64,000 nt of DNA, taken from assembly GCA_013298215.1 (NCBI GenBank), contig JAAFKE010000001.1, positions 134,692 through 198,691 on the forward strand, in the 5' to 3' direction. The notes beneath the pieces were generated by a model that searched no databases, was not told where the DNA came from, and worked only from the letters and a program-made list of their open reading frames with translations. The translations under genes were made by a program, and so were the position numbers. Shown here in pieces: positions 2,838 through 63,260 of this stretch. Position 1 is the first letter of the stretch. Every line of letters starts with the position of its first letter. The DNA comes from Cytophagales bacterium. Its GTDB lineage: Bacteria; Bacteroidota; Bacteroidia; Cytophagales; Spirosomataceae.

Positions 2838-5800
2838 CTAAGGCTGCACGCGCCTTCGCTGGCCGTCGTTGGTAACTACATCTGCGTGGCGCACATTGTT
2901 GGGAAGCCACAAAACGTGGGGCGACTGCGACAAAAACGACGAGCCGTAGCCCAGTTCCTCGCGGCGACTCTTGCCCGAGTTTAACGTCAAGATAACGGTT
3001 GTTTCGTTGGCTGCCAAGGCCACGCGTCGGGGCTGGTTGTTGGCCTTGAACGCCTTCATATTCCCCTGATTTTGCGCCGAAAACACCAGCATATCTCCGT
3101 TTGCGGCCGCAAGGCGCACCAAACTTTTGGCATCTCCTGGCACGCAATACCCGCTCTGGGCCATGCCAACGGCCTCGAAACCGCCGTTGCCGTTGCCCCG
3201 CATTAGCACGCCGTTAAAGGCATCGTACCTCCCCGTGGACACCTCCGTACCAAAATCGTTTCCAGCAAGGAGCACATCCAACTGGCCGTCAAAGTCAAAA
3301 TCTTGGACAATCATCCCAAAAACGGGGGCAAATTGGGCTTCAATTGGCAACGCTCGTACTTCAAACTGGCCTTTTCCCTTGTTTTCTACGTAGCTCGACC
3401 GCGACCAGTTGGCCGTTAGCGTGGTTGCCCCGCTCAGTTCATTGGGTTTTAGCACGTCTTCGATGGTGGCGCGGGCATATTTGGCGTAGTTCTGAAAACG
3501 CTGTCTGGTTTGGACAAACTGCTTGGCCAGGTCGTCGCGGGTGTTGTAGGGAAACTCTTTGAAAACACCCGCCGAATCTTTAAAATAAACCGTCGGAATG
3601 GCATCGTAGAGCCCATCGTTGTTGAAATCTTTGGCGTACATCCGAACCGGACGCGCCTCGGTGGCACGCATAAATGAGTTGTCGCCCAAGTTACCCGCCA
3701 CGTAATCCATGTCGCCGTCGTTGTCAAAATCGCCCGCCGTTAGGCTGTTCCAAAAGCCTACTTTTTGGTCGAGTGCCGAGTGAAGCTGGGCGAACTTTCC
3801 TTGGTTGTTTCTAAGAACTGTCAGCGGCATAAACTCGCCCGCGAGCATCAGATCAGGCCAGTTATCGTTGTCAAAATCGGTCCAAATTGCGTCGCAAACC
3901 ATGCCAATATCTACGAGTGCTGGCGCGAGCTGCGCCGTTACGTCGGTGAACCGCACCCGCTTGCCATTTTTTTCGCCAACTTGGCTATCGTTGCGCAAAA
4001 TAAAGCTCGAAACCCGCTTCGGATACGCGTAAGGCTCCACGCGCCCACCCACAAAAAGATCGAGGTCGCCGTCGTGGTCGTAGTCGGCGGCTTTCACGCA
4101 GGAGCCGCTCGACAAAAACGCGGGCAGTGCCGCCGCCTCGTGTTTAAAATGGCCGCGCCCGTCGTTGGTGTACAAACGGTCTTGCAACCCCGCCGACCCT
4201 GCCGCTATTTCGTAGCTCCCGCTCACGACGTACAGGTCTAAATCGCCGTCGGAGTCCGCGTCGAAGAGCAGTGCGCCCATGTCTTCGGTATTTTTTTCTA
4301 AGCCATTTTCACCTGGCAACAAATCAGATTTTATGAATTTCCCTGCCTTGTTTTGGAGCAAAAAAACGCCCTTAAATGTCCGCGCACCCGCCACAAACAC
4401 GTCGTCGAGGCCGTCGTTGTTCACGTCTCCAACGGCCAAAGCTGGGCCAAATTGCGACAGTTTGTGGGGCAATAGTTTCTGCACATTAAAGTCAATCTGA
4501 TCGAGCTCTTGGTGTGTGTAGTCTATTTTGAGGGCATCGGTTACGTCCTCAAAGATCAACTTTGTTGGCTTAGTTGGGGCACTTACCTCGCTTTGGGCAT
4601 TGCTCTGCTTCACAGTCAAGCACTGGTTTGCTTTCACGTTTTTGAGTAATTGCGTTTTACCGTCTGGCCACGTTATTTTGAGCTGGACCACTGCCGTGTT
4701 TTTACCCAAACCAAAGTAGGCCACTGGCTCGATGGTCGATAAATAGCCGCGATACGGTGAGTTTTCGTGGACTTGTTTCTGCCCGTCTGGGTGCAGTATT
4801 TCTGCCCACGCACCTATTCCATTCAGGTTGCTTTCGTTTCCTATAAACTTAATTTTCAGGTAGTTGGTCTCCGTTGGCTTTTGCTGCACCGCGTTGTTTC
4901 TGTACACCGATGCCACCGAATTGATGTTGTTCACAATGTAGTCGAGGTCTCCATCGTTGTCAAAATCGGCGTAGGCCGCTCCGTTCGAGAAGCTGGGTTG
5001 GCCCACCCCCCATTCGTTGGTTGCGTCAGCAAACTGAATGGCTTTTGATGCTCCCATTCCTTGGTTTCGGTACGCAAAGTTGCCGATTTTTACCGACGGG
5101 GTGTAGTCCAAAAGTGCTTTCTTGCTCAATAGATTTGCCGTTTCTACGCGGTAAGCCATAAAGTCCTGGTCGGTAATATCCCTCGGAAAACCGTTGGTAA
5201 TAAGCATGTCCCTAAACCCATCGTTGTCAAAATCGACCACCATCGGAGTCCAACTCCAGTCGGTTTCGGCTACCCCTGCCAGCAAACCAATCTCGCTAAA
5301 AACGGGCCGTCCCGTTTTGGGGTCTTTTCCCTGGTTGAGTTGCAACGTATTGCGGGCATACTGGTAGCTATAATTGTATTTGGCGTTGTTTTGGTAGGTG
5401 ACGTAACTATTGGCGGGGGTCATCATTTTTTTGCGGTAGTTGCCGTTGGGCATCATATCCACCGCCACCACGTCCACCAGGCCGTCGTTGTTGATGTCTG
5501 CCACCTCGTTGCCCATCGCCGAGTACGAAGTGTGCTTAAAATACAGGCTCGATTGTTCCGAAAAAGTGCCGTTTTGGTTGTTTATGTACAACAAATCGTT
5601 GGTCAAAAAATCGTTGGTCACGTACACATCCTTCCACCCGTCCCGATTAATGTCCGTAATATTTACGCCCAAGCCAAAGCCCTCCTCCCCAATACCAGCC
5701 TGCGCCGACACATCCACAAAACGGACAGTGGCGGGCTGGCCACGAACGCCCTCGTTGCGGTACAGGCGGTCGGTGCTGGGCGAAGAGCCGTCGGTGGTTT

Positions 5801-14334: not shown

Positions 14335-14622
14335 ATGAATATTGACCAAGAAACCCTGCGCAAAGTGGCGCATTTGGCACGCCTCGAACTCCGCCCCGAC
14401 GAAGAACTCTCGATGCAACAAAACTTAGAAAGTGTGCTGAGTTGGATGCAGCAGCTCGACGAAATTGACACCACGGGCGTGGAGCCGCTCACGCACATTT
14501 CGGAGCGCACCAACGCGTTTCGGGAGGACACCGCCCAGAACAACCTGCCCCTGCAACGGGCACTGGCAAACGCCCCTCGCAGCGACAGGTCTTTTTTCAA
14601 AGTACCCAAAGTGATTGAGTAA
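14335..14622 (+). CDS. gatC: Aspartyl/glutamyl-tRNA amidotransferase subunit C
   Basis: 95 residues, normal for GatC, the small subunit that wraps and stabilises the GatA-GatB pair which converts mischarged Glu-tRNA(Gln) or Asp-tRNA(Asn) to the amidated form. Typical features: VAHLARLELRPDEE near the N-terminus, the central LSWMQQLDEIDTTGVEPLTH and the C-terminal RSDRSFFKVPKVIE. As usual in Bacteroidota, gatA and gatB are elsewhere. It is convergent with nadE, 11 bases apart. The 222-base gap upstream (14113-14334) is AT-rich and contains no recognisable gene or RNA. Confidence 0.93.
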   Translation: MNIDQETLRKVAHLARLELRPDEELSMQQNLESVLSWMQQLDEIDTTGVEPLTHISERTNAFREDTAQNNLPLQRALANAPRSDRSFFKVPKVIE

Positions 14623-14633
14623 ACTCGGGGTGG

Positions 14634-16673
14634 TTAGAAGCCTATTTTCCCCCGGCGATTTTCGGTTTTTTTGTCCATAAAATACGCCTCCATTTCGGAT
14701 AGTTCTTTCTGGTAGCCCCCGTTTAGGATCGGGAATCGGCACCACGAGCGGGGGTCGAGATTAAGGTCGTCGAGGTGAAAACCCGGCGCGTAGCGTTCGC
14801 GTTTCCACTGGTTGCGGGCCCAGAGTGTAAAAAAGCGCGCCACCGAATTGTACAACAACTCGCGCTCGAAAACGCCCGCAAAACGCACCTCCATGAACTT
14901 CAAGCACTCCACGGGTGGTTTTTTGTCTCTGATCGCAACCTCTTCGATGGCATCCAGCAATTGGTAGGGCATCAGATCGGCCTCGTCGGTTTGCATTTGT
15001 TCTTTGGGCCGCAGTTCGGCGGTTGGTTGCAGACTATTTACTTTTTGGAGTCCTTTGATGCAGATATTTCGGCCTTTCACGTGGCAACCAATGGTTTCTA
15101 ACCACACCAACCACGTTCTGAGCCAGTGCTTGTCGATGCCCGAAATGGGGCTGATGCTCCCTGCCGTGTCGCCGTCCATGGTGCAATAGCCCACCGCTAC
15201 CTCCGAGCGGTTGGAGGTGGCCAGCAGCAGGTGGTTGTTTAGGTTTGTGAGCAACCAAACCCCTGGCGCACGCACCCGCGCCTGGATGTTTTGCAGGGCA
15301 ATGTCGTCGGTTTGCCACGTTATGCTTCGCCCAATTTGTTGTTCGATCAAGCCTTTGTAGGTTTCCACCAACCCATTAATGCCCACATTATAAAAAGTTG
15401 CGCCCATCGAAAAAGCCAAACTTTCGGCTGACTGATAGGTGTCGGTCGAGCTATTTTCGGTGCTTTGATAAATAGTGTGGATGAGCTGCTTTGAAATATC
15501 TTCCAGCGTTTGGCAATCCTGGATTTTTTTGATGTAAGCCAATTTATTTTTGAACGCATCGATCCCAATGCTCTCGTCGGCCAGCCGGATCATGAGGCCA
15601 CACAGGGCGGTGCAGGCGCAAGAGTCGGCCCCGCCCGAGAGCGAAATGGTGAACCCTTGCGAGCGCGATTTACGGAGGTAATCGAAAAGCCCCAAGCAAA
15701 CCGCCCGGGCAAACTCTTCTTCTTTGAGGTAGCCGCCGCGCTCGAATGGCTCTAATTGGGCCACCTGGTAAGCTGGTGCAATGGCAGGAAAATCGAAACG
15801 ATCGGATACTTTCCAGTTGCCCGCTGGCATCGGCGACTTGATCTGAGCGTGCGAAAGCTGGGTGACTTCGGTGTCGATAACCGCCGTGGTGAGCGTAAAT
15901 TCTTCGTAGCTAAAACGCGGACTCGACGCGAGCAGCTCGCCGTTCGAGGCAATCATGGCATCGCCGTCGAATATCAACCGCCCAGACTCGTTGCCCAACA
16001 GATTGGCGTACACGTAGGCGCACGAAAACGCCCGCGACCCGTCAATCACCAGCCGTTCGCGGGTTATGAACTTATTGAACGCAAAAGGACTGGCACTGGG
16101 GTTGAGGACAATATCTACGGCGCGGTCGAAATGCACGCGCCCTGGGCGGTTGGCCACCCAGGCATCTTCACAAATTTCAAACCCAATTCTGACCCCCGAC
16201 ACCTCAAAAACCAAATCACCAATCGGATACGTCAAGTCGCCAAGGGTAGAAGTCCCCATTTTAATCTCGTCGCGCCCGCCCGCAGGCCAGCGGTGAAACC
16301 ACCGGTCTTCGTAGAAAATGCCCGAATTGGGCAGGTGCTGCTTGGCCACAAAACCCAAAATACGTTTGTTGGCCAGCAAGCAAACGCAATTGTAAAGTTT
16401 GTGGTTGAGCCGCAGCGGCAAACCCACGCTGACGATGATGTTGGCCGTATGGGGAACGATCTCCAAGAGGCTTTCGGTGGCTTGGCGCACCGTGTCGGGG
16501 CTGTAGAAGGCATCGTCGCAACCGTAGCCCGATATGCACAGTTCGGGCAAGCACAGCACGCTCACTTCGGCCTTTCGGGCGGCTTCAATGGCCAACACAA
16601 TGTTGTTTCGGTTGTGCTCCCACGCCATCGGGGTGGTGTTTATGGTGCCAGCAGATACTTTAATGAGTCTCAT
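14634..16673 (-). CDS. nadE: Glutamine-dependent NAD+ synthetase
   Basis: 679 residues, the length of the two-domain glutamine-dependent type. It amidates deamido-NAD+ to NAD+, the last step of NAD synthesis. The N-terminal nitrilase-like glutaminase has its Glu-Lys-Cys triad at Glu44 (CLPELCISGYG), Lys111 (AKQHLP) and Cys168 (GFEICEDAW). The C-terminal NAD synthetase domain starts near residue 320, with the PP-loop SGGADS (346-351) that binds ATP, and the segment LLATSNRSEVAVGYCTMDGD. It overlaps the upstream DCC-family gene by four bases (ATGA), so the two are translationally coupled. It belongs to the NAD economy of the cell, like the island at 55-62 kb, but is an ordinary chromosomal copy. 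Confidence 0.95.
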   Translation of the reverse strand: MRLIKVSAGTINTTPMAWEHNRNNIVLAIEAARKAEVSVLCLPELCISGYGCDDAFYSPDTVRQATESLLEIVPHTANIIVSVGLPLRLNHKLYNCVCLLANKRILGFVAKQHLPNSGIFYEDRWFHRWPAGGRDEIKMGTSTLGDLTYPIGDLVFEVSGVRIGFEICEDAWVANRPGRVHFDRAVDIVLNPSASPFAFNKFITRERLVIDGSRAFSCAYVYANLLGNESGRLIFDGDAMIASNGELLASSPRFSYEEFTLTTAVIDTEVTQLSHAQIKSPMPAGNWKVSDRFDFPAIAPAYQVAQLEPFERGGYLKEEEFARAVCLGLFDYLRKSRSQGFTISLSGGADSCACTALCGLMIRLADESIGIDAFKNKLAYIKKIQDCQTLEDISKQLIHTIYQSTENSSTDTYQSAESLAFSMGATFYNVGINGLVETYKGLIEQQIGRSITWQTDDIALQNIQARVRAPGVWLLTNLNNHLLLATSNRSEVAVGYCTMDGDTAGSISPISGIDKHWLRTWLVWLETIGCHVKGRNICIKGLQKVNSLQPTAELRPKEQMQTDEADLMPYQLLDAIEEVAIRDKKPPVECLKFMEVRFAGVFERELLYNSVARFFTLWARNQWKRERYAPGFHLDDLNLDPRSWCRFPILNGGYQKELSEMEAYFMDKKTENRRGKIGF

Positions 16674-55778: not shown

Positions 55779-57239
55779 TTATCTGTCGTTTTTTCTTATT
55801 TCGCTCCTAATTTCTTCCAATTTCAAGTCCACCAAAAGTTTTCCATCTCGGAATATTTCTTTTAGTTCGCCTGTCTTTTCTTGCACCCAATTTACTTGGT
55901 CAATGAGTTTATAAGTACCATCTTCTAACACAATTTTCATCAAACCTTTGGCAGATTTTTTTGTACCATCGTCCGTGATGGGGTCTTTAAAAATTTCTCT
56001 ACCAACACCATCAACTTCACCATAAGTTGCTTTCATGGCAAAGCCAAAGGTATCTCTGGTGTTGTATTGGTAGGTATAAGAACCAATGCCCAAAACAATA
56101 TTTGTACTGGCAAACCCTTTGGTTTTGAGGCGTTCGCAGATTTGAGTGGCTCTGTCAATGGTTATACTATCGCCATAAATTGCCCCAATTTGAGGAATCA
56201 ATTCTTTGTACCCTTTGTCGTTTGTACTTCCGCCAAATGTATCCCAAAGCAATTCAATTACGCCTTTTTTCTCATTATCGCTTTTGCCGTTAGGATTACC
56301 GCAAATTATATCCACAGGGTCGCCACTATCTGGTCTTATCACTACTTTTCCTTCTCGATTGATGATCTCGTTTTTGAGCTTGGGCAAATATTCTGTCAGC
56401 ACTTTCCATAAATCCCAAGTATCAGAAACGATCGAGACAATGCCTTTTGGATAAACTTCTGTGATTAACCTTTTGAAAGTTCCTAATTCATCATCTAATG
56501 TTCCCATACACATCACTGAATGTTCAGTCGCACTGACTGACCCGCCAATGAGTTCCGTTTCAGCGTTGGCGTTGTAATATTTTTCCAAAAAATCAATGGC
56601 AGGAATTGTATCGGTGCCTGTGAAACTCAATAAATGCCCACTTGCCGAACAAATTGCCGCTTCAATTCCTGCCATGCCACGCATAGAAAAATCGTGCCCT
56701 TGCCAATCGACAAAATCGGGCGTAGAAGATGTTTCAGCGGCGTATTTGTCCAACACTTTTCTGTATTGTTTGGCGATGGTTGCCGACGTACAAGGCATCC
56801 AAATTACAGCCGAAAGCAAAGTTTCAAAATAATTGGTAAGCCAGAAAAATTCGGGCAACGTGTTATACATCGTAAACATCGGTACTCGCACGGGAACACT
56901 TGCACCTTCGGGCAAGGCTTTTATTACCATAGGAATGTAGCCCAAATCGTGCAGGTCTTCGATGTGTTTCGTGCCAACTTGGTTTTCGCCGAGATAATTA
57001 TTGATTCTTCGACGGTATTCGGCCACCACTTTTTCTTTGGGTTGTTTGAAAAAATAGGTTTCAAAATCTTCCAAAATATATTTTTTGATAAAGTATTGCA
57101 AGCCAAAAAACACAACTTCGTCAATGCCTTCGATACGGCTTTTTCGGGGTGTCCAATTTGAGTAAACCAAGGTTGTACCGTTGGGGTATTGTCGGCGGTG
57201 ATCAACTTTATAGCCGTCTGTCAAGAGTAATGGATTCAT
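55779..57239 (-). CDS. nadV: Nicotinamide phosphoribosyltransferase-like protein (NAMPT/NadV)
   Basis: 486 residues, full length for the NAMPT family (human enzyme 491). NAMPT joins nicotinamide to PRPP to give NMN. The N-terminal LLLTDGYKVDHRRQYPNGT is typical. The Asp that sets nicotinamide over nicotinate is kept (Asp210 in SFTGTDTIPAI, equal to human Asp219), and the active-site His is His240 in SVSATEHSVM (human His247). RPDSGDPVDI is the phosphate-binding region. Last gene of the NAD/ADP-ribose operon, 13 bases after a broken yhcG gene. An alternative is a nicotinamide ADP-ribosyl-transferring enzyme of the phage NARP1 type, a family relative that is hard to tell from sequence alone. 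Confidence 0.88.
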   Translation of the reverse strand: MNPLLLTDGYKVDHRRQYPNGTTLVYSNWTPRKSRIEGIDEVVFFGLQYFIKKYILEDFETYFFKQPKEKVVAEYRRRINNYLGENQVGTKHIEDLHDLGYIPMVIKALPEGASVPVRVPMFTMYNTLPEFFWLTNYFETLLSAVIWMPCTSATIAKQYRKVLDKYAAETSSTPDFVDWQGHDFSMRGMAGIEAAICSASGHLLSFTGTDTIPAIDFLEKYYNANAETELIGGSVSATEHSVMCMGTLDDELGTFKRLITEVYPKGIVSIVSDTWDLWKVLTEYLPKLKNEIINREGKVVIRPDSGDPVDIICGNPNGKSDNEKKGVIELLWDTFGGSTNDKGYKELIPQIGAIYGDSITIDRATQICERLKTKGFASTNIVLGIGSYTYQYNTRDTFGFAMKATYGEVDGVGREIFKDPITDDGTKKSAKGLMKIVLEDGTYKLIDQVNWVQEKTGELKEIFRDGKLLVDLKLEEIRSEIRKNDR

Positions 57240-57252
57240 TTTGTTTTAGGTT

Positions 57253-58266
57253 TTATGATGATATTTTTTTTCGTTCAATTTTTTCATTTGCTTCCAACCA
57301 AGCATTATGAAGTTGCTTTTGAAATATTTCTTTCGGTGGTAGTTCCGTCCAATATTCTGCAACCATGATACCGTCTTTGTGCATTTCTAAGAGTTCTATT
57401 TGTTCCTTGCTACTTTCTGGACAAAGAATCAATCCGATTGGTGCAAGTTCGCCTTCTTGTCTTTCGTATTTATCCAACCATTTCAAATATAACTCCATTT
57501 GCCCCTTATGTTTAGCTTGAAATTTGCCTATTTTAAGCTCTATTGCTACTAATCTTTTTATTTTTCGATGATAAAAAAGCAAGTCCAAATAAAAGTCTTC
57601 CCCGTCAATAATCATTCGTTTTTGTCTTTCTACAAAAGCAAAACCTCGCCCAAGTTCCATGATAAACTTTTCCAAATTTGCTAAAATGGCGGATTCTAAA
57701 TCTTTTTCGAGATAGCCAGTGCTTAAATTTAAAAAATCAGCCAAATAAGGGTCTTTGAAAATACCCGTTTCTATGGTTTCACTTCCTATAATTTGGCTGT
57801 CTGCGATGCCTACTCTTTCAAATGTTTTATTGGCAATTTGTTTGCGTAATTCACGAACTCCCCATGCTTCTGATACAGATTTTTGAGCATAAAAAATTTG
57901 GGATTCTGTACTTGAAAGCGGAATGATGACCAAAAAATGCGATCAACTTAATTGTCGTGACAGTGTAACGACAATTTCAAAATCGGTAAACGTATCAGCA
58001 AATTGAAGCATTCTACGCATATTTTTTTCTTCAAAATTCCTGCCGTATTGTTCCTCCAACTGTCTTGACAGAGTTGCGATGATTTGTTTGCCATAAGTTG
58101 CTCTTTGTTGTTCCAGTATAAAATGGTTGCAATGATGCCCAATTTGCCAAAACAGCATGGTCAATGCACTATTTGCCTGTTTCAAAACTTGACTTTTGCT
58201 TTTTTCAATCAAAGTTTTAATGCTTTTTAACAATACCTGTTCTGAATTTGAGATTTCAATGTTCAT
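57253..58266 (-). pseudogene. YhcG-type PDDEXK nuclease (DUF1016), interrupted by one in-frame TGA
   Basis: The N-terminal DUF1016 domain (MNIEISNSEQVLLKSIKTLI to TLSRQLS, about 107 residues) and the C-terminal PDDEXK part are in the same frame and separated only by TGA at 57943-57945. The join reads LSRQLS-stop-SHFLVIIPL, where the family has Trp (LSWSHF). So a TGG to TGA change broke an otherwise complete gene of about 340 codons. The nuclease core is intact: DFYLDLLFYHRKIKRLVAIE (D, then E-x-K in IELKIGKFQ). YhcG-like proteins are mobile and often seen in defence or accessory regions. The downstream half could be translated from the TTG at 57933. It is packed with no gap to its upstream neighbour. 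Confidence 0.85.
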
Positions 58267-59241
58267 CTATTTGGTTTTTTGTTCTAAACGATTACACAAA
58301 TCTTCAATATCCTCTTTTCTAGCCAATACATCAATCCACTTTTTAGGAATGTTCTCAAAACCATATAAAATACCCGCTAATCCTCCTGCAATAGCAGCGG
58401 TTGTGTCGGTATCTTTACCTAAATTAACTGCTTTTAAAACGGTTTCTTGGTAAGAATTACATTTCAATAAACACCAAAATGATGCCTCTAAACTGTGTAA
58501 CACGTAGCCTGAACCAAATATTTCAGCTTCAGAACACTCATACAAAGGCATAATCTTATAATTGCCAATAGGATTGCCCAATATTCGATGAAATAAGTCT
58601 ATCTCTCTTTGTGAACAAATTGGGTTATTGTCTAAAAAATCATTCACTATTTTAACTGTTTCATTATACGCCTTCCATTTATCTTGATTTTGTAAAAGCT
58701 GCAATGCCATTTCTACATAGATAAAACAAGCGAGAATAGAACGAATATGAGCATGAGTAAGCGAAGAAACATCTTTGACAATTTTAAATCGCTTTTCAAT
58801 ACTCAAATCTTTTACATAAAAGACAATGGGTAAAATACGCATCAATGAACCATTGCCATTACTTTCTTCATCTTTACCACCCGCCAAAACAGGCAAAACA
58901 CCCTTACTTAATGAATAAATTGCTTGGGAAGTTGCTATGCCAACATCAAAAACTTTGCCGTGTGACGTCCAATAAGCATGGTTATACCAATTAACAAAGT
59001 GATTAGCCAAATTTTGAAGGTCATATTTGCCACAAAGCATTTCTACCAAGCAAAACGTAAGCGAACTATCGTCCGACCAAGTGCCTGCGAGTTGGTTATG
59101 TGTACCAAATCCAATCATTTCTGTAACAGGGTTTTGGGTCAAATATTCTCTTGATTTAAACTCAACAGGTACGCCCAAAGCATCGCCAACGGCTACACCA
59201 AACAAGGCACTATGGATTTGTTTTTTATGTTGTTCTGTCAT
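58267..59241 (-). CDS. ADP-ribosylglycohydrolase (DraG/ARH family)
   Basis: 324 residues. These enzymes remove ADP-ribose from protein arginine, serine, or nucleic acid. The two metal-binding sites are intact: ALFGVAVGDALGVPVEF at the N-terminus, WSDDSSLTFCL (Asp57, Asp58, the DD-S/T motif) and GKDTDTTAAIAGGLAGILYG near the C-terminus (paired Asp-Thr that bind Mg). No signal peptide. It is the fifth gene of the operon, 2 bases after DUF4291 and directly abutting the broken nuclease gene. Together with NADAR, this supports an ADP-ribose reversal theme. Confidence 0.9.
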   Translation of the reverse strand: MTEQHKKQIHSALFGVAVGDALGVPVEFKSREYLTQNPVTEMIGFGTHNQLAGTWSDDSSLTFCLVEMLCGKYDLQNLANHFVNWYNHAYWTSHGKVFDVGIATSQAIYSLSKGVLPVLAGGKDEESNGNGSLMRILPIVFYVKDLSIEKRFKIVKDVSSLTHAHIRSILACFIYVEMALQLLQNQDKWKAYNETVKIVNDFLDNNPICSQREIDLFHRILGNPIGNYKIMPLYECSEAEIFGSGYVLHSLEASFWCLLKCNSYQETVLKAVNLGKDTDTTAAIAGGLAGILYGFENIPKKWIDVLARKEDIEDLCNRLEQKTK

Positions 59242-59243
59242 TT

Positions 59244-59882
59244 CTATTCTCTTATAATTCCAATTCTTTTACAAATTTTATCATCCCCAATCTCTACTAC
59301 ATTTTCAATTGGCACAAGTAGTTTATTTATTTGATGTGATTTCACAAATTCAAATTGCTCTCTCACAAAGGGCGTTATATCTTCTATTTTGATAATCCAT
59401 TCTGTACAAAAAAATTTCAAAATATCACCTTTCATACCCAACTGAATTGCTTTTCGCTCTTGCTTATTTCCGTGTGGGTCATGGTCGGGGTCCCACTGTA
59501 ATCGTACTTCTGTTTCAGCCAATGCGATTTTCCAAGATTCATGTGTATCAAACAAAGTATCGTCAAAAGACGAAATTGTGGCTTGCGATAGGATATTTTT
59601 AAAATTTTCTAAGGAAATTGTGATTGCCAAAATACGCTCTTGCTGTTCTTTGGTTGCCCAACCTGCCCGATACATCATCCAAAGAAAATTTGGTTTTATC
59701 CATGACATTCTGTTAAAACTATAATCTGCCCCACCAAAACGTTGATGTTCAACGGCATAATTTGATATTTTTGGATTAAAGGCTTGATAAACAATGATAT
59801 TATCGTTTTCACTTTGCCCGATAATCTGTTTACCCGACTTGGGTATTCTTTCTTTTTGTGCTATGTATTTTTCTGTTTTCAT
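59244..59882 (-). CDS. DUF4291 family protein
   Basis: 212 residues of DUF4291, recognised from IIVYQAFNPKISNYAVEHQR, then FGGADYSFNRMSWIKPNFLW and MMYRAGWATKEQQERILAIT. Family function is not known to me. The conserved motif with aromatic residues and Arg/His suggests an enzyme binding a nucleotide. The neighbourhood (NADAR, ADP-ribosylglycohydrolase, NAMPT) suggests work on NAD or ADP-ribose, but that is inference. It overlaps the preceding gene by four bases (ATGA), so it is translationally coupled. Confidence 0.8.
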   Translation of the reverse strand: MKTEKYIAQKERIPKSGKQIIGQSENDNIIVYQAFNPKISNYAVEHQRFGGADYSFNRMSWIKPNFLWMMYRAGWATKEQQERILAITISLENFKNILSQATISSFDDTLFDTHESWKIALAETEVRLQWDPDHDPHGNKQERKAIQLGMKGDILKFFCTEWIIKIEDITPFVREQFEFVKSHQINKLLVPIENVVEIGDDKICKRIGIIRE

Positions 59883-60301
59883 TTTTGTAATTGATTTGCA
59901 TGGCTAATTGATATTTGAGTTGCCTCATCAGTTTTCAAGAAATCAAATTGTTTCCCTAAAAACACTTTGACTATTTCAATTTCCCCAATAATTTGATTAT
60001 TAAATTCTTCTAATTCTTCCGAAGGAACCCATAATTCATTGTGAAATTTGTCCCCCACATTTTGGATTCCATATTTTTTCAAATACTTCGTTGGCAAATT
60101 AAATTGTGTAACTATCCCGCAATATCCTGAAAACTTATCGTTTGTATTCCACTCAAAAGCTATTTGTTCAGCATATTTTTGATTCATAACAGGATAAAAT
60201 ATGGGCTGCCAAGTCAATCTTGGAGGAAATTTCTTGAACTCCAAATCTATGATTAATTGTAGTTCTTTTAAACCTATCGGTCTGTATAACATGGTATTCA
60301 T
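59879..60301 (-). CDS. Small protein of the ADP-ribosylation/crystallin J1-labelled family
   Basis: 140 residues. The sequence LYRPIGLKELQLIIDLEFKK, then FPPRLTWQPIFYPVMNQKYA and ELWVPSEELEEFNNQIIGEI match a small family that databases, as I recall, label ADP-ribosylation/crystallin J1. That label implies but does not prove an ADP-ribose connection, and the DraG metal motifs are absent. It has no signal peptide. It begins six bases after the NADAR gene and overlaps DUF4291 by four bases. The reaction is unknown; in this setting it may recognise or modify an ADP-ribosylated substrate. Confidence 0.6.
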   Translation of the reverse strand: MNTMLYRPIGLKELQLIIDLEFKKFPPRLTWQPIFYPVMNQKYAEQIAFEWNTNDKFSGYCGIVTQFNLPTKYLKKYGIQNVGDKFHNELWVPSEELEEFNNQIIGEIEIVKVFLGKQFDFLKTDEATQISISHANQLQK

Positions 60302-60307
60302 AGTTTC

Positions 60308-60829
60308 TTATTTCTTCAATTCATCTCTCACTTCCATCAAAGCAAAACCCAATAGATTTAAGCCTTTCCAAAGTAATGGGTTTTCAATATGTGAGCGAGT
60401 ACCTATTCCCCAAACTTTATCAAAAGGGCTGGCTTCTACTATAATATTTTCCTCTGTACTTAATAAAAAAATTTCCAAATTAGCATTTTGTGAAAATTTA
60501 TGACGGTTTCCTTCAAGCACATACTTATAGCGATATTTTTCCCAAACAGTATCATCAAAACCTTTCACTCCTCTACCATATTTTTTTGCCATTGCAGGGC
60601 TATCAGTAGCTAAGATATTTCCAAGTTGTTCCTCATCTCCAAACAATCTTGCCTTTTCTGCCATCATCCAATGTTCGGCAGTTTTGTAAGTGATATTATC
60701 CACAACAAATGGACTAACCCACCATTGACTAAAACAGGTTTTAGTAATTGTGCCATCTTTTGATGGTTGATGCCCCCAAAAGAATAAAAATTTATTCGCT
60801 GGGTCAATATTTTCAATGGTATATTTCAT
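60308..60829 (-). CDS. NADAR family N-glycosidase-like protein (YbiA/RibX type)
   Basis: 173 residues from ATG 60829, whose ATGA overlaps the stop of the prs-like gene; the longer in-frame start would lie inside that gene. NADAR domains cleave N-glycosidic bonds, in ADP-ribosylated guanine nucleic acid or in riboflavin intermediates. The family motifs are all here: FFWGHQPS near the N-terminus, FSQWWVSPF, TAEHWMMAEKARLFGD, KKYGRGVKGFDDTVW, and the closing PFDKVWGIGTRS. Some NADAR proteins act as antidotes to ADP-ribosylating toxins (DarT type). The setting here, with NAMPT and ADP-ribosylglycohydrolase, favours the ADP-ribose role. Confidence 0.88.
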   Translation of the reverse strand: MKYTIENIDPANKFLFFWGHQPSKDGTITKTCFSQWWVSPFVVDNITYKTAEHWMMAEKARLFGDEEQLGNILATDSPAMAKKYGRGVKGFDDTVWEKYRYKYVLEGNRHKFSQNANLEIFLLSTEENIIVEASPFDKVWGIGTRSHIENPLLWKGLNLLGFALMEVRDELKK

Positions 60830-61731
60830 AACAATACGTTCAATTTTATCTGCGTTAAACAACTGTGATTTAGGTCTTTAAAAGAATTTGTGGTAAAAAT
60901 ATGGGTAAAGCATTTTTCTAATTCTTCAAATCCTTTACTAAAAATACCATGACTCACTGCCAAGTACAATTTACCAGCATTTTTCTTTTTTAGCTCCTCC
61001 GCCAAACCGATAAATGTGCCGCCACCATCACAAATATCATCCACAATCAAACAATTTTGACCGTCCAAATCATCGGCATAGACTTTAAAACCCGTCAATT
61101 TACCCGTTTTTACATCTCTACTTTTACTACATTCCACCACTTCAACACCTCCGAGAAACTCAGAAACTTTATAGATTTTCTTCAAAGCACCACCATCGGG
61201 CGAAATTAGTTTTACCTCCGCCCCAATTTTTTCAATCACTTGCTTGATAAAAACATGATTTGCAATCACCTCACAATTATTCAAAACAGCGGGCGTAACC
61301 TCCGAATGTGCATCTAAAACAATTACTTTTTTAAAACCCAAATTATTGATAATGTCTGCATAAACTTTTACAGAAAGTGGTTCGCCTTTTACCATCACAC
61401 GGTCTTGTCGGGCGGCAGGAAAATAGGGTATAATCAACGTTGAAAGCTCAATATCCATGCGTTTCAAGGCATCAACAGCTAAACAAAGCAAACCCAAATC
61501 GTTGAATGAGTTTAGGCGGTGAGTAACTGTAGCCCCCCCGCCCGCGCGGCGTCGCAGTGGCGCACCACCCGTCCCGGAGGGGGAGTTCAATCTATCAATA
61601 GTTCCCCCTCTGGGGGTTAGGGGGCTTAGGCTTATCTTTATATGCGGTTCGCCACCTGAAAAAGTAAAGTTCTGAAATTCAATTTCTCTTCCATCTAATG
61701 GTTTGAAATCTTTGTCTAAATTGAGTACCAT
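60826..61731 (-). CDS. Ribose-phosphate pyrophosphokinase-like protein with an inserted repeat
   Basis: 301 residues of the PRPP synthetase family. The flexible catalytic loop PYFPAARQDR (103-112) and the PRPP-type loop CLIVDDICDGGGTF (227-240) are present. They differ from the housekeeping forms: DAHSEVTP stands where DLHAxQIQG is usual, and DDICDGGGT replaces DDMxDTGGT. These mark the NAD-associated Prs group found beside nadV. Residues about 36-67 (SPLTPRGG to RRRAGGGA, rich in Pro, Gly and Arg) are encoded by a GC-rich repeat inserted in frame. First gene of the operon behind the two operator copies; it overlaps the NADAR gene by four bases. It may supply PRPP to NAMPT, or make ADP-ribose pyrophosphate as in phage NARP1. 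Confidence 0.85.
   Translation of the reverse strand: MVLNLDKDFKPLDGREIEFQNFTFSGGEPHIKISLSPLTPRGGTIDRLNSPSGTGGAPLRRRAGGGATVTHRLNSFNDLGLLCLAVDALKRMDIELSTLIIPYFPAARQDRVMVKGEPLSVKVYADIINNLGFKKVIVLDAHSEVTPAVLNNCEVIANHVFIKQVIEKIGAEVKLISPDGGALKKIYKVSEFLGGVEVVECSKSRDVKTGKLTGFKVYADDLDGQNCLIVDDICDGGGTFIGLAEELKKKNAGKLYLAVSHGIFSKGFEELEKCFTHIFTTNSFKDLNHSCLTQIKLNVLL
61531..61626 (-). repeat. 96-bp GC-rich repeat-like element inserted in frame in the prs-like gene
   Basis: The segment is strikingly GC-rich inside an AT-rich gene. Its ends are inverted (AGCCCCC at 61531-61537, GGGGGCT at 61620-61626). Internally, CCCCC-TCT-GGGGG forms a mini-hairpin (61604-61616), and a second GAGGGGGAG/GTTCCCCCTC pair adds another stem. 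The length, 96 bases, is 32 codons, so the frame stays open. The end sequence CCCCTCTGGGGGTTAGGGGG resembles the short repetitive sequences found in Bacteroidota genomes. No clear target-site duplication is visible. No second copy was noticed in the window. Confidence 0.65.
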
Positions 61732-61743
61732 AATTCTTTATTT

Positions 61744-61760
61744 TGTGTAATAATTACGCA
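61744..61760. promoter_or_regulatory. Predicted NrtR operator 1 (prs operon)
   Basis: TGTGTAATAATTACGCA, a 17-base near-palindrome (one mismatch between half-sites). It lies 13 bases before the prs-like start and overlaps the -7 element by two bases, so a bound repressor would cover the transcription start. Same consensus (TGYGTAA-W4-TACGCA) as the two sites below and above. Confidence 0.65.
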
Positions 61761-61789
61761 AAATTAAATGGATTGTTTTACTATCCAAA
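61759..61789 (-). promoter_or_regulatory. Promoter of the prs-nadV operon
   Basis: On the minus strand TTTG (61789-61786), a 19-base spacer and TAATTTTG (61766-61759) match the Bacteroidota promoter consensus exactly. It lies between operators 1 and 2. Transcription would begin within operator 1, about 20 bases before the prs-like ATG. Confidence 0.7.
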
Positions 61790-61794
61790 CAATT

Positions 61795-61811
61795 TGTGTA
61801 AAAATTACGCA
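61795..61811. promoter_or_regulatory. Predicted NrtR operator 2 (upstream of prs promoter)
   Basis: TGTGTAAAAATTACGCA, 51 bases from operator 1 centre to centre, about five helical turns. With its right flank AAATTAA it repeats operator 1 almost exactly over about 25 bases. It overlaps the stop codon of the nrtR-like gene. The spacing suggests that two repressor dimers can sit on the same face of the DNA, with the promoter between. Confidence 0.6.
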
Positions 61812-62497
61812 AAATTAATATCAAACAAGAATCCATCTTTCGCTAACTTATTGTATTTCAATTTATTAAACCTAAATAACTTTGCAGGACGACCACTTTT
61901 TTTTGGTGAAAAATTATCAGTTTCTTCAATGATACCAAAACTCAATATCTTTTTTCGGAAGTTTCTGCGGTCAATTTCTTTTTCTAAAATGGTGCAATAC
62001 AGGTTTTCTAAATCTGAAAACAAAAACTCTTTTGGAAGCAAATCAAAGCCGATAGGCTGATAGGTTAATTTATTTTGAAGCCGAAGAAGTGCGGTATTCA
62101 GTATGTCTTTGTGGTCAAAAGCAAGTGTAGGTAACTCTTTTATCGGAAACCATTTTGCATCTTCTGCATCGGTATCGGCCGTTAAAACAAGTTTGGTAGA
62201 ATTTACTAATGCAAAGTAGGCAACTGAAATCACTCTAAATCGTGGATCTCTGTCGATGTTGTCGCCAAAAGTAAAAAGCTGTTCCAAATAATTCACTTTT
62301 ATTCCTGCTTCTTCTTTCAGTTCTCGATTTACGGCATCGTTTAGGGTTTCATTGTCTTTTACAAAACCACCGACCAACGCCCATTGGTTTTTCAATTCGC
62401 CAAATTTTTGTTTGATTAGCAATACACTCAAATGATTGTCTGCATAGCCAAAAACAATTGCGTCCACCGCTATTTTAATGTTCTGTTCAAGTTTCAT
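61805..62497 (-). CDS. nrtR: NrtR-type Nudix transcriptional regulator
   Basis: 230 residues. The N-terminal Nudix domain has an intact box GFVKDNETLNDAVNREL/KEEAG (residues 44-65, pattern G-x5-E-x7-RE-x2-EE-x-G), so ADP-ribose binding and perhaps hydrolysis are possible. Residues about 150-230 are a winged helix domain typical of NrtR (FRKKILSFGIIEETDNFSPK, then KSGRPAKLFRFNKLKYNKL). NrtR repressors control NAD synthesis genes and are released by ADP-ribose. Its gene lies upstream of the operon on the same strand with its own promoter region. A related sugar-sensing Nudix repressor (AraR type) is possible by fold, but gene context argues for NAD. Confidence 0.85.
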   Translation of the reverse strand: MKLEQNIKIAVDAIVFGYADNHLSVLLIKQKFGELKNQWALVGGFVKDNETLNDAVNRELKEEAGIKVNYLEQLFTFGDNIDRDPRFRVISVAYFALVNSTKLVLTADTDAEDAKWFPIKELPTLAFDHKDILNTALLRLQNKLTYQPIGFDLLPKEFLFSDLENLYCTILEKEIDRRNFRKKILSFGIIEETDNFSPKKSGRPAKLFRFNKLKYNKLAKDGFLFDINFA

Positions 62498-62505
62498 TTT
62501 ATATA

Positions 62506-62528
62506 TGCGTAAATTATACGCAAATATA
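62506..62528 (-). promoter_or_regulatory. Predicted NrtR operator 3 and -7 element of nrtR
   Basis: TGCGTAAATTATACGCA (62506-62522) is the third copy of the 17-base palindrome, with one half-site mismatch. TATATTTG on the minus strand (62528-62521) matches the Bacteroidota -7 consensus and overlaps the operator by two bases, exactly as at the prs promoter. No clear -33 element is visible. The nrtR ATG is at 62497, so the operator sits over the transcription start and implies autoregulation. Confidence 0.65.
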
Positions 62529-63123: not shown

Positions 63124-63191
63124 AAAAAAAGCCGTGGTCTGTGTCCCCACAAACCATGACCATTGTAGTCTGTGGGGACACAGACCACGGC
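63124..63191 (-). terminator. Strong terminator downstream of the GH97 gene
   Basis: Bases 63131-63151 and 63171-63191 are perfect reverse complements (21 bp) with a 19-base loop, and on the minus strand the stem is followed at once by TTTTTTT (63130-63124). It is 76 bases after the GH97 stop. Its arm has been copied in the adjoining array. Confidence 0.75.
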
Positions 63192-63260
63192 GGGGGTGTC
63201 CCCACAGACCACGGCGGGGGTGTCCCCACAGACCACGGCGGGGACACAGACCACGGCGGC
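63179..63260. repeat. Short tandem array built from the terminator stem
   Basis: Two exact 24-base copies (63179-63202, 63203-63226), then a copy shortened to 18 bases (63227-63244) and a partial fourth copy (63245-63260). Each unit starts CACAGACCACGGC and ends GTGTCCC, so the units alternate the same sequence that makes the right arm of the terminator. Because unit sizes are multiples of three, an ATG-initiated frame stays open through it, but coding is unlikely. It is not CRISPR: there are no spacers. Confidence 0.8.

Follow-up and report, generated by a model that had tools for sequence, protein, structure and literature searches.

The window, that is, the whole 64,000-nucleotide stretch of a Cytophagales bacterium genome that we analyzed, carries on its minus strand nrtR followed by tightly packed genes in the same orientation, which overlap or are separated by very short gaps through NAMPT. 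The sole sizeable gap, 73 bp between nrtR and prs, contains a promoter and most of a pair of predicted operators. In the direction of transcription, the features are:

62521–62528, minus strand: predicted nrtR −7 box, TATATTTG (sequence; TA in 43 of 45 clusters)
62504–62524, minus strand: predicted NrtR operator at the nrtR promoter, core 62506–62522 (exact palindrome; comparison of loci)
61805–62497, minus strand: nrtR, Nudix-related repressor with a Nudix domain and an NrtR winged helix, Nudix box intact (Pfam; PDB sequence and fold matches)
61793–61813, minus strand: predicted NrtR operator, upstream prs copy, core 61795–61811 (sequence; comparison of loci)
61786–61789, minus strand: predicted prs −33 box, TTTG, with a 19-bp spacer to the −7 box (sequence; clusters)
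61759–61766, minus strand: predicted prs −7 box, TAATTTTG (sequence; TA kept in 30 of 34 clusters)
61742–61762, minus strand: predicted NrtR operator, downstream prs copy, core 61744–61760 (exact palindrome; conserved at prs in 55 loci)
60826–61731, minus strand: prs, ribose-phosphate pyrophosphokinase (profile searches)
60308–60862, minus strand: NADAR-domain protein (Pfam 4e-51)
59879–60301, minus strand: 140-residue conserved protein, weakly ADP-ribosyltransferase/KptA-like fold (AlphaFold pLDDT 94; Foldseek best E 6e-3)
59244–59882, minus strand: DUF4291 protein (Pfam 6e-66)
58267–59241, minus strand: ADP-ribosylglycohydrolase (Pfam 2e-73)
57253–58266, minus strand: split YhcG/DUF1016 nuclease gene (two reading frames matching the two halves of the family), apparently divided by a frameshift
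55779–57239, minus strand: NAMPT/nadV, nicotinamide phosphoribosyltransferase, the last gene of the operon (Pfam 3e-38; NCBIfam 3.5e-181)

The cores of the three predicted operators are the only exact matches in the window to the palindrome TGYGTAA-W4-TACGCA, at the three positions that the original prediction had stated. No match occurs in dinucleotide shuffles of the window or in 60 first-order simulations of it, and the runner-up, a palindromic site with two mismatches (5653–5669), lies within a 1198-codon open reading frame. A scan of the whole genome (3.55 Mb in 65 contigs), which that prediction had proposed, returned perfect matches to the 17-mer at the three nrtR/prs sites only, not at many unrelated places; chance occurrence of the palindromes is thus ruled out. 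When two mismatches are allowed, the genome-wide matches are scattered and at background level, so we claim no wider regulon.

The prs promoter in the window, TTTG-N19-TAATTTTG, is an exact fit to the Bacteroidota sigma-A pattern, that is, TTTG (−33), approximately 19 bp, and TAnnTTTG (−7). The predicted start sites are at approximately 61754 (prs) and 62516 (nrtR); when the −7 box is placed at −12 to −5, as described for Bacteroidota (PMC9723704), the core operator spans −6 to +11 at both promoters, a position that would suit a repressor that blocks initiation. The 21-mer of the downstream prs copy is predicted to cover approximately −8 to +13 of the prs transcript. The overlap of operator and −7 box, claimed to be exactly two bases, has this length for the 17-mer; for the 21-mer it is the whole TTTG, which the −7 box TAnnTTTG and the operator have in common at both promoters.

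Both promoters were further said to have identical geometry, which is correct for the register between −7 box and operator but not for the −33 box. Counting the clusters left after the removal of near-identical sequences, the −33 TTTG at prs gives a sharp peak at the 19-bp spacer (exact in 14 of 34 clusters, at least three of the four bases in 27 of 34), whereas at nrtR no −33 box is found at the standard spacing in the window and an exact TTTG is present in 1 of 45 clusters; a fully common geometry is therefore ruled out for this element, and the two promoters are only half alike. Neither promoter element is enriched at the upstream prs copies (TA in 14 of 26 clusters).

For comparison across Bacteroidota we used a symmetric operator matrix built from 80 named orthologue loci and other relatives, which yields ATTTGYGTAAAATTTACRCAAAT; read along transcription, the operator is conserved as a 21–23-bp palindrome, TTTGYGTAA-N3-TTACRCAAA, with the 17-mer as its core. 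The strict 21-mer occurs one to four times per genome in 14 NrtR-bearing genomes, nearly always at nrtR or NAD-salvage genes, and the reversed control pattern has no matches in the same genomes. The two prs copies in the window are 51 bp apart (about five helical turns) with the promoter between them, exactly as predicted, and this pair is kept: two copies lie upstream of prs in 55 loci, 54 at 49–53 bp and one (G019) at 64 bp, close to one extra turn, although many of these loci are from Flavobacterium, so the counts are not independent events. The spacing has its mode at 52 bp (37 loci), with 51 bp in 8, 53 bp in 7, and 50, 49, and 64 bp in one locus each, and the pair at prs is found in Cytophagia, Sphingobacteriia, Flavobacteriia, Chitinophagia, and Saprospiria.

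An open scan for pairs at any spacing from 36 to 66 bp in approximately 790 Bacteroidota genome entries (two draws that overlap somewhat) identified pairs in 21 genomes from nine genera, every one at 50–54 bp; the reversed control pattern gave no pairs in these entries. An NrtR orthologue (at least 59% identity) is present in 11 of the 11 pair-bearing genomes that were tested. The genes downstream of the pairs include prs, NAMPT, and nadM, and pairs at 52–55 bp also occur without prs, either before nrtR or, downstream of nrtR, at other genes. One genome (G044) has a single recognizable site at prs, and many Flavobacterium nrtR promoters have no recognizable site. In one locus (L052, positions 14589–14845; genome G006), both operator copies follow nrtR, with a gene other than prs next, and the contig ends soon after.

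The NrtR protein matches the Pfam families NrtR_WHD (1e-23) and NUDIX (5e-20), and its nearest solved structures, both by sequence and by predicted fold, are BtAraR and SoNrtR; BtAraR is the closest (sequence E 6e-65, Foldseek E 2.6e-23; Foldseek 3e-17 for SoNrtR), and the predicted model (pLDDT 87) matches 3gz5/3gz6 and 5bs6. The score against NCBIfam NF050029 (ADPR responsive transcriptional repressor) is 145 bits (E 2e-42), below the curated cut-off of 400 bits, so we regard the protein as a distinct branch that is distantly related to this equivalog. ADP-ribose releases other NrtR proteins from DNA (PMC4666351, PMC6800001). Arg98, which contacts ADP-ribose in SoNrtR (PMC4666351), corresponds to R86 here; this arginine is invariant in 24 of 24 aligned orthologues, whereas roughly half of 22 more distant members of the family carry V, I, or L there. 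Asn43, another contact in SoNrtR, is replaced by Phe/Tyr, and the N-terminal aromatic contacts of SoNrtR have no clear match in the alignment, which leaves the ligand less certain than the operator; with these contacts not kept, ADP-ribose is predicted to be the likely signal for this protein. The Nudix glutamates E50, E59, E62, and E63, together with R58, are invariant in the 24 aligned orthologues, and 56 of 81 orthologues have an intact full Nudix box (the remainder differ by Gly to Asn), compared with 4 of 22 distant members, so catalysis by NrtR is predicted to be possible.

We consider it very probable that all three palindromes serve as operators for the NrtR encoded between them, which would repress its own gene as well as the prs operon, with the pair placed around the prs promoter and ADP-ribose causing release; binding, repression, cooperation of the two copies, and the signal are what we infer here. 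NrtR dimers would bind TTTGYGTAA-N3-TTACRCAAA, and the site on the predicted nrtR start site would repress nrtR itself. At prs, one site would occupy the start site in the same register, with the second just above the −33 box, upstream by about five helical turns; the promoter would thus be gripped from both sides. As ADP-ribose builds up from NAD breakdown, NrtR would let go, and Prs, the NADAR protein, ADP-ribosylglycohydrolase, and NAMPT would be made and NAD rebuilt from nicotinamide and PRPP. Autoregulation plus repression of the operon had been proposed from the window by itself; the comparison now argues strongly for this reading, with the pair conserved at prs, the NrtR orthologue in all pair-bearing genomes tested, and sites that stay with prs.

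The fixed spacing of the pair could reflect promoter room alone, that is, two NrtR dimers that bind independently, the downstream copy blocking initiation and the upstream copy blocking the −33 region or read-through from nrtR, with neither looping nor contact between the dimers. This explanation is compatible with NrtR operators, and we give it slightly less than an even chance: in almost all loci the upstream site ends beside the −33 box, so the layout of the promoter could by itself set the distance, but the lone large departure in G019 adds nearly a full turn, and pairs at 52–55 bp occur away from prs. Looping and simple blocking can be directly distinguished in a genetically tractable Flavobacterium. 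A more elaborate and rather doubtful version of our proposal is that NrtR, whose Nudix catalytic residues are invariant, is both switch and enzyme. It would cleave ADP-ribose, its own inducer, to yield AMP and the Prs substrate ribose-5-phosphate, with the result that the operon resets itself and the signal is recycled into NAD, and the two phased dimers would enclose the promoter in a repression loop of about five turns.

The upstream site, centered near −49, might instead be an activation site, in which case NrtR would both activate and repress prs. Its position is close to that of activators that touch RNA polymerase, and it is kept as strictly as the downstream site; however, the NrtR-family proteins described in PMC4666351 and PMC6800001 act as repressors, including the related AraR with its tandem sites (PMC4666351), and we judge activation improbable.

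Still less probable is that the sites belong to another regulator, e.g., an AraR/XylR-like paralogue, and adjoin nrtR by chance. The genome does have one or more NrtR-family paralogues (40% identity for the one on contig 1), and the winged helices of the family are related; however, the sites co-occur with NrtR orthologues of at least 57% identity and front NAD genes rather than sugar genes, and no operator sites are found at the paralogue locus (L046), which argues against their being binding sites of the paralogue.

The upstream prs copy includes the nrtR stop codon (61805–61807; TTT GCG TAA), and its left half encodes the Phe-Ala-stop of NrtR. In some other loci, nrtR has moved away from prs: nrtR is approximately 7 kb from prs in L053 and L105, and 121–285 bp lie between the two genes in L099 and six Aquimarina loci. 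Both sites are kept at approximately −80 and −28 from prs in these loci (with a weaker upstream copy in Aquimarina), and no palindrome is found at the 3′ end of their nrtR genes; in L053, Phe-Ala-stop is retained with the codons TTC GCC, whereas loci with adjacent genes use the TTT GCG of the operator. In another genome (G307), nadM-NAMPT follows the pair on contig 17, and nrtR is on contig 45. Arrangements of this kind speak for action of the sites in trans on NAD-salvage genes and against their origin as by-products of the nrtR coding sequence. That the upstream copy is merely conserved C-terminal coding sequence is hardly credible, since the stop codon comes before its right half and, with nrtR elsewhere, the palindrome remains at prs while the codons at the end of nrtR change.

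That NrtR controls NAD genes is established, and the 2008 description of NrtR reportedly also predicted control of PRPP synthesis and may already contain a Bacteroidota prs site; what we add here is the Bacteroidota operator, the phased pair across the phylum, the common register of −7 box and operator, and the evidence from displaced loci. SoNrtR (Shewanella oneidensis) and MsNrtR (Mycobacterium) are likewise autoregulated Nudix and winged-helix repressors with a palindrome at NAD genes and release by ADP-ribose (PMC4666351, PMC6800001), although here ligand and binding are predicted; they differ in operator sequence (the mycobacterial site is GTTTTCGA-N7-TCGAAAAC), and our system has prs-NAMPT as its targets, two phased sites, and a mostly intact Nudix box. 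BtAraR (Bacteroides thetaiotaomicron), also of the NrtR family, has tandem sites before its target operon; however, it responds to L-arabinose, controls sugar genes, has 3 or 42 nt between the copies, and carries Gly where this clade keeps Arg86. The ARG-centered ADP-ribose systems with Nudix or WYL repressors (PMC9503650) resemble ours in that variable operons bring together an NrtR-like repressor and genes for ADP-ribosylglycohydrolase, NADAR, Macro, and nuclease proteins; theirs are described for actinobacteria, planctomycetes, and proteobacteria, whereas ours are in Bacteroidota with a constant core of prs and NAMPT.

With this operator as a clean signature, NAD-salvage and ADP-ribose-processing operons can be found in Bacteroidota. 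The interval between prs and NAMPT varies among genomes and includes genes for NADAR, Macro, ADP-ribosylglycohydrolase, KptA/Tpt1, DUF4291, metallophosphatase, and PurA-like proteins, sets fitting an ADP-ribose and NAD-recycling response; these shifting ADP-ribose enzymes, several without a known role, look like a response to NAD loss or ADP-ribosylation. Large variable sets occupy this interval in L101, L111, L130, and L164 (Macro, KptA, ADP-ribosylglycohydrolase, metallophosphatase, PurA-like, and deoxyribosyltransferase-like). The 140-residue protein, which belongs to no Pfam family, recurs widely in these operons, and the confident model of it shows a weak resemblance to Tpt1/KptA and other ADP-ribosyltransferase folds. 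Within prs in the window, a palindromic C/G-rich element (61528–61636) adds, in frame, 24 residues that are absent from the orthologues, and elements like it, in both orientations, are found at several further locations in this genome. Between a DUF421 gene and the next gene, at 63140–63260, GTGTCCCCACAGACCACGGCGGGG-like units form short direct repeats in tandem.
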